This document shows, piece after piece, positions 35,551 to 63,262 of a stretch of DNA of 64,000 nt. The stretch spans positions 1-64,000 of the forward strand of contig JAUIAB010000015.1 of the NCBI GenBank assembly GCA_030425505.1, in the 5' to 3' direction. The translations under genes and the position numbers were made by a program. Position 1 is the first letter of the stretch. Each line of letters opens with the position of its first letter. Origin of the DNA: Bacteroidia bacterium. GTDB taxonomy: Bacteria; Bacteroidota; Bacteroidia; Cytophagales; Flammeovirgaceae. The notes under the pieces were generated by a model, which had not been told where the DNA came from, did no database searches, and worked only from the letters and a program-made list of their open reading frames with translations.

Positions 35551-35663
35551 GACACCCTTCGCGAAGCTCGTCCCGGGTGCCAAAGCCAGAGCCAACCTAC
35601 AGATCCCCTCGGTCTTTGGCTTACCCTCTTTCCCCAGGGTGCAGTCATGCCCAACGGGCATGA
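35551..35663 (+). repeat. Interspersed repeat family 1, copy A
   Basis: A GC-richer block unlike its surroundings, matched by copies B (58134-58220) and C (63154-63262, opposite orientation). A 19-base stretch, CCTCTTTCCCCAGGGTGCA (35625-35643), is identical to copy C. Two inverted repeats suggest a fold: CACCCT (35553-35558) with AGGGTG (35636-35641), and GCCAAAG (35579-35585) with CTTTGGC (35614-35620). An extra eight-base palindrome TCATGCCC/GGGCATGA sits at 35645-35663. It abuts the -33 box of the TonB operon. Reading frames through it look like chance. Confidence 0.75.
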
Positions 35664-35729
35664 AATAATTTGCTAATATGCTAATACGATAGTCTAGTTA
35701 ATGAAATACTATTTTAAAAAGTAGGGTGG

Positions 35730-35820
35730 CTAGGCAAAATCGCGATGGATGCGAGGATTTGTGCGGCTGGAATTATTTTGCCTAGATTTTTTGCATACTT
35801 TTTTATCAATGAAAAAAGAA
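35730..35820 (+). repeat. Interspersed repeat family 2, diverged third copy
   Basis: CTAGGCAAAAT (35730-35740) pairs perfectly with ATTTTGCCTAG (35775-35785). A GATTTTTT linker follows, then CTTTTTT (35798-35804) pairs with AAAAAAG (35812-35818) around a seven-base loop. The order helix, GATTTTTT-like linker, second helix with a small loop, then an AAGAA-type tail matches the copies at 36001 and 38433 although the bases differ. This is a relationship by architecture and partial sequence, so weaker than the link between the other two copies. Confidence 0.55.
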
Positions 35821-36000
35821 TGAGCCTAGCGGCTTGAGCTAAACAAACATAAGCTCCATTAATAGTTTGCATTTCATTGGGTTAAATCGATTGCCATCTT
35901 GGTGAAAACCAAGATCTAAAAGATAACGGATCAATTTTGTTATGGCACTTCTTTGTACTAGGATAGCGCTCGTTTGAAACGAGTGTTTACATTAAAAAGC
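35821..36000. other. Gene-free stretch with two small palindromes
   Basis: No gene is seen. ATCTTGGT-GAAA-ACCAAGAT (35896-35915) is a perfect eight-base hairpin closed by a GAAA tetraloop on the plus strand. CTCGTTT-G-AAACGAG (35969-35983) is a near-perfect palindrome. Both lie between family-2 repeat copies in the 750-base spacer between the TonB receptor and dprA, and may be parts of further repeat elements. Confidence 0.5.
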
Positions 36001-36108
36001 AGGTTGGACGAATGTCCCGCAGGGTGTGGGAAGGCATGTAGGGTGGAAGCTTAGGACATTCTTGAATTTTCTATCCTTTTGACTTGAATCAAAAGGATAG
36101 AAAGAAAA
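36001..36108 (+). repeat. Interspersed repeat family 2, copy 1
   Basis: Aligns along its whole length with the copy at 38433-38541. Helix 1: GAATGTCC (36010-36017) with GGACATTC (36054-36061). Helix 2: CTATCCTTTTGA (36071-36082) with TCAAAAGGATAG (36089-36100), 12 perfect pairs around a six-base loop. The span from start to end of helix 1 is 52 bases in both copies. Sequence differences in helix 2 between copies are compensatory. The remaining bases to dprA (36109-36243) hold nothing recognisable. Confidence 0.8.
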
Positions 36109-36243: not shown

Positions 36244-37347
36244 CTACAAAGAACAAAACCTTTTACCCGGTAAAGGCTTAATAAACCCTTTAAACTCTAA
36301 CTGCAGCAAAATACTAGCTAGCTGATTTAATGGAACATTAGCTTGGAAACTAATTTTATCAATCTGAACAGGTTCATCTTTAACAATAGCATAAACAATA
36401 GCTTCGGCTTTGCTAAGAGAGCTTACATCTTTTGGAGCTTTTTTAGTAGTAGATTCAAGATCCCAGTTCAAAAGCTTTTCCAAATCAGATATTTCAGTAA
36501 ACAAATGAGCCTTATGGCTTTTGATCAAATAGTGACAGCCCTTCGCATTTTCATCGTGAATATCTCCGCAAACAGCTAAAACCTCTCTATCGTAGGCATT
36601 AGCCAATTCAGCAGTAATCAAAGCACCACCTTTCTTTTTCGCTTGTACTACAACCACTGCATCAGATAAACCAGCAATAATTCTATTTCTAGCAGGAAAC
36701 TTTGGGGCATCAGGCTTAGACCCAAACTTATTCTCCGTTACCAAAGCGCCATTACTTTCAATCTTTTTTGCTATATCCTTATGAAGAGCAGGATAGACGG
36801 TGCCAATTCCATTTGCCATAACAGCAATAGTTGGGATCTTATACTTTAAAGCAGCTTTGTGCGCTTCTACGTCAATACCATATGCCAAACCACTTACAAT
36901 AGCTACATCTTTCCGGTTTTGTAAGCTCTCAACAATCTCTTCCGTTATTCTTTTTCCGTATTCTGTAGCATCTCGCGTGCCTACAATTGCAATTGGCTTT
37001 TTCCACTCCAAAGAAGCATGTCCTTTCTTGTACAAAATAGGAGGTGAGTCATAAATCTGTTTGAGCCTATGAGGGTAGTCCTTATGATTTTGATGAAGAA
37101 TAGTAACATTATTTTTCTTTGCTAAAGCGATTTCACTATCAACAGCATTAAAAATTTTTGCATTTACAATTTCCTCGACAACATACTCTCCAATGCCTGG
37201 TACTTTTAATAACTTTCCCTTAGGAGTTGAAAAAACAGCTTCAATAGAACCACAATAGCTTAACAAATTTTTGAATAAAACACTGCCAACACGAGGAATT
37301 AAACTAACAGCGAGGTGGTAATACAGCTCTTTCTCTTCATCTATCAT
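36244..37347 (-). CDS. dprA: DNA-processing protein DprA
   Basis: Binds incoming single-stranded DNA in natural transformation and loads RecA. From the preferred ATG at 37347 the protein has 367 residues; 17 poorly fitting residues (MTSRKLILHFLTSIHQN) would be added from 37398. A SAM-like helical N-terminus contains a helix-hairpin-helix (LLKVPGIGEYVVEEI). The Rossmann-like DprA core follows with IVGTRDATEYGKR, SGLAYGIDVEAHKAAL, FPARNRIIAGLSDAVVVVQA and GGALITAELA. A C-terminal winged-helix domain ends the chain. The gene is divergent from the DUF4349 gene. No other competence genes are near, apart from the RadC-type gene 1.2 kb away. Confidence 0.93.
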   Translation of the reverse strand: MIDEEKELYYHLAVSLIPRVGSVLFKNLLSYCGSIEAVFSTPKGKLLKVPGIGEYVVEEIVNAKIFNAVDSEIALAKKNNVTILHQNHKDYPHRLKQIYDSPPILYKKGHASLEWKKPIAIVGTRDATEYGKRITEEIVESLQNRKDVAIVSGLAYGIDVEAHKAALKYKIPTIAVMANGIGTVYPALHKDIAKKIESNGALVTENKFGSKPDAPKFPARNRIIAGLSDAVVVVQAKKKGGALITAELANAYDREVLAVCGDIHDENAKGCHYLIKSHKAHLFTEISDLEKLLNWDLESTTKKAPKDVSSLSKAEAIVYAIVKDEPVQIDKISFQANVPLNQLASILLQLEFKGFIKPLPGKRFCSL

Positions 37348-37479
37348 ATTTTGGTGAATAGAAGTTAAAAAATGTAAAATTAGCTTTCTTGAAGTCAAAA
37401 ATACATCGTGAAACTTTCACTTTTACATAAAGTGTAGTACTTTGATGGTGTATAGTGTTACGTTTTATGGTTATTCACG

Positions 37480-38367
37480 ATGAAAAAATTTAAAAAAGGA
37501 ATTTTATATGCGCTAATAGGGTTTGTAGTGCTATTTATCATTAGGCTGATTTATGGATACATTCAATACCCGGAAGGAAAAGAAAAGAATCAATACACAA
37601 CCCCGAACAATCACCTTTTAAATAGTGAGCAAATCTCATCCTCGGAAGGTTTTACAGGTTATGCGAGAAATAACTATGCAAGCAAGAAATATAAAAAGTC
37701 TTCCATGCAGGCAAGTGGCTCGAGAATGGTTTTAGACCAGAAATACGAGAAAGTATGTTCAATGTCTACCAGAACTACAGATTTTGAAGAAGATAAAAAA
37801 CAAATAAAAAAGAATATCAAAGACTTTAAAGCGCTCATTCAGTATGAGCAACAGTCAGGATTAAAAGGGTACAGAGATTTGAGGCTTGCAATTGGAGTTC
37901 CCCCAGAAAGCTTTGACAGTATGATTGTAGAACTTAAGAAAATAGGGAAAGTAGAGTCAATACAAATCAACAAAATTGATAAAACAAATGAATATAAAGA
38001 GTTGCAAGCGAAGCAACTATCTCTCACAAAAACACTAAACTCACTTCAGGAGCTTAAAAGAAGACAAGGAAAAATAGGGGAACTAATAGACCTTGAAAAT
38101 AGAATACTAGACATACAACAGTCTATCCAAAACCTAGGAGTTAGCTTAGGCGATTTTGATGCTGAAAACGAGTTTTGCACCGTAAAAGTGACATTACAAG
38201 AAAGAAAAGTTATTTTAGCACACATACCCATTGTAAAAAGAGTTATAGTAGCCTTCGAGTGGACCGTTCAGTACTATGGAATATTTATAGTAATTCTTCT
38301 TTTTGGCTCCTTAGCAATACTTGCCATAATCAAAATAGTAGAAAAGTTAGGGTTGTTTAAAAGCTAA
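37480..38367 (+). CDS. DUF4349 domain membrane protein
   Basis: The 295-residue product has an N-terminal transmembrane helix (about residues 8-25) and a C-terminal one (about 263-286). The long extracytoplasmic segment between them contains a coiled coil (LQAKQLSLTKTLNSLQELKRR to about residue 225). The central FEEDKKQIKKNIKDFKALIQYEQ and LRLAIGVPPESFDSMIVELKKIGKVESIQI segments are the DUF4349 core, a ferredoxin-like fold in the family. Function unknown; some members sit beside anti-sigma factors, but not here. The gene is divergent from dprA and convergent with the RadC-type gene. Confidence 0.87.
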   Translation: MKKFKKGILYALIGFVVLFIIRLIYGYIQYPEGKEKNQYTTPNNHLLNSEQISSSEGFTGYARNNYASKKYKKSSMQASGSRMVLDQKYEKVCSMSTRTTDFEEDKKQIKKNIKDFKALIQYEQQSGLKGYRDLRLAIGVPPESFDSMIVELKKIGKVESIQINKIDKTNEYKELQAKQLSLTKTLNSLQELKRRQGKIGELIDLENRILDIQQSIQNLGVSLGDFDAENEFCTVKVTLQERKVILAHIPIVKRVIVAFEWTVQYYGIFIVILLFGSLAILAIIKIVEKLGLFKS

Positions 38368-38432
38368 TTACTTCCTTTCATTTGAAATTTCACACTTTAA
38401 GTTATAGGTTACTTGTTAAGTATATATTGAGT

Positions 38433-38541
38433 GGGCTGGGTGAATGTCCAGCGGGGTGAGGGTAAGCTAGTAGGGAGGAAGCTTTGGGCATTCTTGATTT
38501 TTTAGGGCTTTTGGATCAAGCCAAAAGCACAGAAAGAAAAA
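38433..38541 (+). repeat. Interspersed repeat family 2, copy 2
   Basis: Second full copy, between the convergent DUF4349 and radC-type genes. Helix 1: GAATGTCC (38442-38449) with GGGCATTC (38486-38493), the one mismatch being a G-U wobble. Helix 2: GCTTTTGG (38507-38514) with CCAAAAGC (38521-38528) and a six-base loop. Relative to copy 1 two pairs of helix 2 change on both sides (A-T to G-C, C-G to G-C), so pairing is kept. The tail AGAAAGAAAA is shared. Confidence 0.8.
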
Positions 38542-38608: not shown

Positions 38609-39340
38609 CTACATCAACCCTTTATCTAAAAAACTATAATATCCATTATCAGTAAAAATGACGTGATCTAAGACAGGAATATCCAATAACTTCCCTGCAC
38701 TAATAAGCTGTTGTGTTAAACTAATATCATCACTGCTGGGCTTAATATTACCTGAAGGATGGTTGTGAACCAAAATGATTGCGCTTGCTAGTTCTTCTAA
38801 AGCCCTTTTAAAAATAAGCTTGGCATCCACTAAAGTACCAGAAACGCCACCTCTGCTAATTACCTCTTTTCGGAGCACCTGATTAGATCTACTCAAATGC
38901 AAAACCCAAAACTCTTCATGTTTTAAGTCTAGTAGCTCAGGTTTCATTACCTCATGCACATTTTCCGAAGATTTTATAACAACCTTTTTCTCAAACTTTT
39001 CTTCCTTTCTTCTTCTGCCTAGTTCCAAAGCGCTAACTATAGATATAGCCTTAGCGAGACCAATACCTTTGATTTTAATAAAATCTTGCACGGAAAACTT
39101 GGCAAGTTCGTTTAGGTTATTACTTGCTTTGTTCAAAATGAACTTACCCATATCAAGTGCATTAATAGACTGAGTGCCGCTTCGTAGTAAAATAGCTATT
39201 AGCTCAGCATTAGAGAGAGCTGATTTCCCTTTGTGCAATAATTTTTCCCTTGGTTGATCTTCCTTAGACCAATCTTTTATGCTGATCCCTTTAATTTCAG
39301 GTATTTCCAGAGCTTCTTTTTTCTTAACTTTTTTTTCCAA
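38609..39340 (-). CDS. radC: RadC-family JAB-domain protein
   Basis: The 243-residue protein has a helix-hairpin-helix region (about residues 75-105; IKIKGIGLAKAISIV) and a C-terminal JAB/MPN metal-site domain with VHNHPSGNIKPSSDD (HxHPSGxxxPSxxD). The VISRGGVSGTLVDAKLIFKRALEE block is typical of RadC. The name comes from an E. coli locus whose role in repair was later questioned; JAB metalloproteases cut isopeptide bonds elsewhere, but no substrate is known for this family. The gene is chromosomal full length, not the short mobile-element form, and converges on repeat copy 2. Confidence 0.93.
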   Translation of the reverse strand: MEKKVKKKEALEIPEIKGISIKDWSKEDQPREKLLHKGKSALSNAELIAILLRSGTQSINALDMGKFILNKASNNLNELAKFSVQDFIKIKGIGLAKAISIVSALELGRRRKEEKFEKKVVIKSSENVHEVMKPELLDLKHEEFWVLHLSRSNQVLRKEVISRGGVSGTLVDAKLIFKRALEELASAIILVHNHPSGNIKPSSDDISLTQQLISAGKLLDIPVLDHVIFTDNGYYSFLDKGLM

Positions 39341-63153: not shown

Positions 63154-63262
63154 CATGACCTTGCACCCTGGGGAAAGAGGCTAGGCCAAAGATCGAAGAG
63201 CCTAGTGCGTTGGTTTTAGCTTTGGCAGCCGGGATGAGCATTGTGGAGGGTGTCATTTCGTT
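63154..63262 (-). repeat. Interspersed repeat family 1, copy C (inverted)
   Basis: The reverse complement aligns with copy A throughout: the 19-base stretch TGCACCCTGGGGAAAGAGG (63162-63180) is exactly the complement of 35625-35643. Both inner and outer inverted repeats are kept: CACCCT (63164-63169) with AGGGTG (63247-63252), and GCCAAAG (63185-63191) with CTTTGGC (63220-63226). It lies at the right edge of the decayed island, in opposite orientation to copy B. The bases to guaB hold nothing further. Confidence 0.75.

Follow-up and report, generated by a model that had tools for sequence, protein, structure and literature searches.

A multi-copy intergenic repeat family of Cytophagales with a conserved, covarying fold that includes a pseudoknot

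Two copies of an intergenic repeat in a Flammeovirgaceae genome differ on both sides of a helix and still pair, which raises the question of whether selection acts on a folded molecule and, if so, whether that molecule is RNA or DNA. A sequence-only reading of the window (the whole 64,000-nucleotide stretch analysed here) had proposed such selection. We followed the repeat through the window, the 2.95-Mb draft genome to which it belongs and other genomes, using covariance model R1, built on ten local copies, and R2, built on 104 copies across many genomes.

Copies in the window

The window holds two full-length copies, A and B, and a divergent third member, with helices P1 and P2 and a pseudoknot placed as follows.

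36000..36108, + strand: copy A, full-length repeat (R1 122.6 bits, E 1.1e-28 in own genome; R2 99.1 bits)
36010..36017, + strand: copy A, P1 5' arm GAAUGUCC, from the sequence
36018..36053, + strand: copy A, G-rich conserved P1 loop, 36 nt
36054..36061, + strand: copy A, P1 3' arm GGACAUUC
36061..36066, + strand: copy A, pseudoknot 5' strand CUUGAA; partner inverted, pseudoknot broken
36071..36100, + strand: copy A, hairpin P2 (arms 36071-36082 / 36089-36100), inverted tip, loop CUUGAA at 36083-36088
38432..38540, + strand: copy B, full-length repeat between converging genes (R1 123.2 bits)
38442..38449, + strand: copy B, P1 5' arm GAAUGUCC
38486..38493, + strand: copy B, P1 3' arm GGGCAUUC, one G-U pair
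38493..38498, + strand: copy B, pseudoknot 5' strand CUUGAU, partner AUCAAG at 38515-38520
38505..38530, + strand: copy B, hairpin P2 (arms 38505-38514 / 38521-38530), one broken pair, loop AUCAAG at 38515-38520
35723..35828, + strand: divergent third member (R1 E 0.02; R2 48.4 bits, E 1.2e-8; L020:1224-1331)
35730-35740/35775-35785, + strand: third member, P1 CUAGGCAAAAU/AUUUUGCCUAG
35794-35804/35812-35822, + strand: third member, P2, with UAGAU and an AUCAAUG loop (second pseudoknot class)

Both copies noted in the earlier reading are present, and its description of helix 1 holds: the span is exactly 52 bases in each (36010-36017/36054-36061 and 38442-38449/38486-38493), and the helices differ by a single change, U-A to U-G. 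The six-base loop said to be the same in the two copies is the same in length but not in sequence (CUUGAA at 36083-36088, AUCAAG at 38515-38520). Two-sided changes do occur in helix 2, but in three pairs (alignment 74-99, 76-97 and 83-90) rather than two, and the helix is not paired throughout, since copy B has a broken G.A pair at alignment pair 75-98. Converging genes flank copy B as described (37480-38367, + strand, and 38609-39340, - strand). Copy A does lie downstream of dprA, 135 nt past the end of a dprA-like ORF (36244-37398, - strand), but on the opposite strand, and is antisense to both of its neighbour genes. The observation is thus confirmed in part.

A third helix, the pseudoknot, was absent from that description. 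In copy A the tip of P2 is the reverse complement of the tip in the nearest sister copy, L002 (GATTCAAGTC against GACTTGAATC), so that the pseudoknot cannot form; the same inversion is found in L076 and L190.

We further note a second, unrelated repeat with inverted repeats of the form CACCC...GCCAAAG...CTTTGGC...GGGTG, present in the window at 35551-35643 and, in opposite orientation and 78% alike, at 63162-63254. It also occurs downstream of an IS200-like gene in L014, and its GGGTG end precedes the family member at L023:625.

A fold conserved through helix turnover

The element is roughly 110 bases long, lies between genes and has a fixed order of parts: a G-rich 5' lead, the P1 5' arm, a loop, the P1 3' arm, UUGAY, a U-rich linker, the P2 5' arm, RUCAAG and the P2 3' arm. 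The P1 loop is conserved, G-rich and 34-37 nt long, with a consensus near CAGCGGGGUGnGCGnnGGCnUGnrGCGgGGAAGCAUU. The P1 arms around it are of many types (GAAUGUCC, GAUUUGGC, GACGCAGC, GAAAAUUC, AAAUGAAA and more), with 39 different 5' arm strings in 104 copies, a few of which are alignment artefacts. Some copies carry extra G+C-rich inserts at the junction of P1 and the pseudoknot or in the linker (CGGCAGCCG-like hairpins in L053, L156, L157, L152, L160, L207 and L175), which are perhaps nested repeats.

The covariance-model search that the sequence-only reading had proposed recovers 12 full copies in the own genome (R1, E < 1e-24), that is, ten beyond A and B, together with diverged ones, and finds members in relatives as well. 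Across 103 distinct copies, 96.2% of helix cells are paired against 65.7% in shuffled controls, two-sided changes number 636 against 194, and the covariation score is 0.730 against 0.198 when shuffled and at most 0.181 when slid; these counts lean towards structure, as the alignments were fitted to it, and a model-free segmentation that seeks the best paired arms gives the same arms. A second set of 109 copies, gathered with R2 and in part overlapping the first, agrees with it (score 0.767) and adds the independent third helix. All eight P1 pairs show two-sided changes in the multi-genome alignment, with 97.5% of cells paired; uncompensated copies, which the earlier reading had named as evidence against itself, form a small minority (2.5% of P1 cells). 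As the copies share ancestry, p-values are not strict. These observations show that the fold is conserved while the sequence of its helices is not, and they support selection on a folded molecule.

Inside the own genome the evidence is modest and confined to P2: 15 two-sided cells are found against 5.5 in shuffled controls, every one in P2, and P1, whose support comes from other genomes, has no two-sided change at all. The earlier inference was thus right but rested on little.

The pseudoknot covaries in its own right. UUGAY pairs with the P2 loop over at least 4 bp in 82 of 109 copies, against a mean of 37 and a maximum of 49 in 1000 shuffles, and the two strands covary at three positions. 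The pair types are UUGAU/AUCAA (29 copies), UUGAC/GUCAA (20), UUGCC/GGCAA (8), UUGAA/UUCAA (5), UUGGC/GCCAA (3) and UUGUC/GACAA (3). A minority class, which includes the window's member at 35723, combines CUAGAY or CUGGAY with the loop sequence CAAUG, a non-Watson-Crick variant in which the two strands change together. These results, with those for P1 and P2, establish that the repeat forms a multi-copy family whose fold, the pseudoknot included, is conserved and covaries.

Copies with a longer P2 have a longer linker (Spearman 0.62, n = 70; 0.74, p 2e-4 over 20 sequence clusters). A linker that has to span P2 would show this, although the same correlation could arise if the linker simply duplicated part of the P2 5' arm. 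The linker mirrors or repeats P2 sequence, as where linker CUUUUGUUUUG accompanies P2 3' arm CAAAAUAAAAG. A parallel Hoogsteen match of the linker to the P2 3' arm is overall no better than the antiparallel match of a strand exchange; the asymmetric cases L056 and L369 favour a triplex, and the terminal G favours strand exchange. H-type pseudoknots with a U-rich loop 1 occur in telomerase RNA and some riboswitches, and the present family resembles them in strand order, in a U-rich linker facing a U-A rich stem and in purines in the 3' strand; unlike them, it is a dispersed bacterial repeat, and its triple helix is only a candidate. One doubtful extension is that these are Bacteroidota-wide mobile repeats whose pseudoknotted RNA would either lay the linker in the P2 major groove as a triple helix or exchange it with the P2 5' arm as a two-state switch, with P1 serving as a family-specific address for an enzyme or RNA-binding protein.

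Distribution, mobility and transposase genes

Members are found by R1 in 31 of 97 relatives. In Algoriphagus, the genus of G050, 39 of 59 genomes carry the repeat, and G040 and G055 hold it at 40 or more places each; two genomes of the genus to which G055 belongs each gave 54 stretches matching a 3-kb query, and most of these are the repeat. Hosts named through pattern matches that the model also recovered include Algoriphagus, Dyadobacter and Cyclobacteriaceae, Flammeovirgaceae and Cytophagales MAGs. A phylum sample gave matches at 1e-4 in 53 of 296 genomes, and outside Cytophagales many retain only the module of pseudoknot and P2, joined to another 5' part. A 36-nt match lies beside an HU gene in Parabacteroides distasonis records; at L376:2501-2536 and L377:2201-2236 the pseudoknot-P2 module stands alone just past the end of the HU gene, at polysaccharide loci, in P. 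distasonis records labelled plasmids. Phage records gave no match to the repeat.

The family is uncatalogued, being absent from Rfam 15: at the gathering cut-off, the window and 11 many-copy loci gave no match, and 20 further loci gave only one unrelated TPP riboswitch. No description of the repeat was found in the open literature searched. Flavo-1 RNA (RF01705), also a Bacteroidetes structured RNA, has a sub-threshold match to P2 of copy A, but this scores 16.8 bits, where the gathering cut-off is 42, and covers P2 alone.

The repeat is probably mobile, being gained and lost between species and occurring in head-to-head doublets. A. limi, A. kandeliae and G416 have the element at one Algoriphagus intergenic site where G426, G428 and G411 have other repeats; an orthologous site in G055 and G040 carries one copy or a head-to-head pair. 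A hand tally of doublets gave about 14 head-to-head and 2 tail-to-tail.

Searches for Y1/REP transposases and TnpB yielded no mobilising enzyme. The link to a REP-type transposase that the sequence-only reading had suggested checking did not hold up: among 50 Y1-transposase loci plus L014, a single locus has a copy within about 1.5 kb, and R1 and R2 together gave one match at E 4e-6 (L105), the others being 0.5 or worse. The sole further instance is in G397, where a truncated RAYT stands between two copies. PF01797 has no match in the copy-bearing genomes G040, G055 and G090, and scanning around Y1 genes for the 3' module with a regex of about 50% sensitivity gave one implausible match. The own genome's single Y1 transposase (L014:1501-1845; G000:C32:30880-31224) is of IS200 type, with a YIKKQ motif near subclass 1.2, and the element is not beside it. 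A 5' GT[AG]G foot (GTAG or GTGG) is not a feature of the family at P1 or P2 in the alignments; RAYT subclass 2.6 of Bacteroidetes also lacks this foot (PMC6006769), so that its absence is not decisive alone.

Bacteroidota-type RAYT genes are flanked by other palindromes, such as CCTCGTTTGCAACGAGG, unrelated to this repeat. At L284, L285, L098, L289, L291 and L302, RAYT genes (NHxH...YIHxNP) have flanking palindromes with TTTGCAA or TTTGAAA at the centre and arms that vary. These are apparently the cognate REPs of the genes; a 2018 survey called the REPs of Bacteroidota RAYT atypical. The type is present in the window at 35968-35985, immediately upstream of copy A, as palindrome GCTCGTTTGAAACGAGTG, which also lies upstream of L028, L031 and L033; given its resemblance to the RAYT-flanking palindromes of related genomes, it may be a true local REP.

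The reading of the repeat itself as the REP of local RAYTs was ruled out, as it has no RAYT association and the RAYT genes carry palindromes of their own. It shares with REP, BIME and REPIN sequences a dispersed, intergenic, palindromic nature, inverted doublets and a scarcity between diverging genes, but differs in its length of about 110 nt, two helices, conserved 36-nt loop, pseudoknot and free helix sequence, and from the xxxTTTGCAAxxx-type palindromes of the RAYT 2.6-like genes here. MITEs derived from IS200/IS605 (PATEs) are likewise small and non-autonomous with structured ends; the present repeat has neither TnpB nor an adjacent Y1 gene.

In Algoriphagus, at L073:12900-15730, L277:6400-10600 and L276:7890-10170, the element recurs on one strand in arrays whose units measure about 300-900 bp; a truncated RAYT, duplicated GNAT-like genes and CCCGGGTTAAAACCCGGG-type palindromes are present there too. 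An integron attC site, which same-strand arrays in G064, G050, G397 and G403 had suggested, was ruled out on gene content: the Algoriphagus arrays contain tandem repeats or ordinary genes, not promoterless single-gene cassettes.

RNA or DNA, and what the repeat may do

Among copies with otherwise clean helices, G-U exceeds A-C on the modelled strand by 21:7 in P1 and 19:1 in P2, with the reservation that the covariance model slightly favours G-U during copy collection; an earlier strand test on alignment A6 alone was noisier. Folded DNA predicts no such preference, and the excess thus favours RNA. In 108 of 109 copies the + strand gives the more stable fold; in single-copy thermodynamic folding, the + strand did better than shuffled sequence in some cases only (z -3.4, -1.3 and -0.5), and z was more negative (-6.9, -2.9 and -2.1) for the - strand. 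With genes called by a simple ORF rule, the upstream gene is co-directional in 83 of 118 copies (++ 49, -- 20, converging 34, diverging 15), a bias that is absent in the own genome (4 ++, 7 --) and also compatible with a replication-strand effect; 9 of the 118 copies overlap an ORF call. Neither window copy has an intrinsic terminator (a G+C-rich hairpin followed by a T run). The G-U excess and the orientation bias suggest that the repeat is probably an RNA, with selection at the RNA level in sense-oriented transcripts.

The same structure might instead be selected as single-stranded DNA, as the terminus by which an HUH (Y1) transposase recognises and moves a non-autonomous element, in the manner of REP or IS200/IS605 ends, with transcription irrelevant. 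Its dispersed, intergenic, gained-and-lost distribution, its REPIN-like head-to-head doublets and the P2 tip inversions in copy A, L076 and L190, which an extruding DNA palindrome would be expected to show, all speak for this. We nevertheless regard it as possible but on the unlikely side, given that Y1 genes lack nearby copies, one weak case excepted, that G040 and G055 with their many copies have no Y1 match, that RAYT genes have their own palindromes, and that neither the G-U excess nor the sense-strand bias is accounted for. Tip flips and a long, near-perfect palindrome in P2, together with the restriction of own-genome two-sided changes to that helix, would also fit arm-to-arm copying by template switching at quasi-palindromes, which produces two-sided changes without structural selection. 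This is very unlikely for the family: the P1 arms lie about 36 nt apart around a conserved loop and covary fully, the pseudoknot covaries independently, and such copying would not leave G-U over A-C.

Two further readings take the product to be an RNA acting in other ways. The constant architecture, conserved loop bases and free helices are typical of sensing or catalytic RNAs, yet a trans-acting small RNA or riboswitch-like sensor in many copies appears improbable, since many near-equal copies lie beside apparently varied genes, converging contexts outnumber diverging ones, which argues against 5' leaders, and no promoter-like site was found at the window copies. A pseudoknotted RNA of about 110 nt beside variable flanks recalls the guide RNA (omega/reRNA) of a TnpB/IscB-type nuclease left by IS605-type elements. 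This reading is largely refuted and keeps hardly any probability: the search covered TnpB, whose zinc-ribbon domain was found in 0 of 15 element-bearing genomes, on which ground the TnpB guide RNA was ruled out, and Rfam gave no match.

To a dispersed intergenic repeat that encodes a folded RNA within the transcript of the upstream gene, acts as a cis barrier at mRNA 3' ends and spreads non-autonomously, we give about an even chance on the strength of the sequence comparisons. Each copy would encode, on the reported strand, an RNA in which P1 closes the conserved G-rich loop and is followed by an H-type pseudoknot, with UUGAY predicted to pair with the P2 hairpin loop over a U-rich linker whose length rises with that of P2. 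Orientation and the G-U bias suggest that this RNA is made as a 3'-UTR or inter-cistronic structure of the upstream gene's transcript. The knotted structure may then affect decay, processing or read-through in the manner of REP/BIME, and gain, loss and doublets are consistent with copies that would spread through a separate enzyme. Against this account count the missing sense bias in the own genome, the antisense position of copy A, the z-scores of single-copy folding, the finding of no intrinsic terminator at a copy and the failure to find a mobilising enzyme.

Most comparable repeats are short, simple palindromes linked to a known transposase. Here a full pseudoknotted fold is kept through complete helix turnover in scores of genomes, without an obvious mobilising enzyme. 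The family lends itself to testing whether what their RNA does is the reason that interspersed repeats of bacteria spread or persist. It would also account for many unannotated intergenic stretches in Cytophagales.
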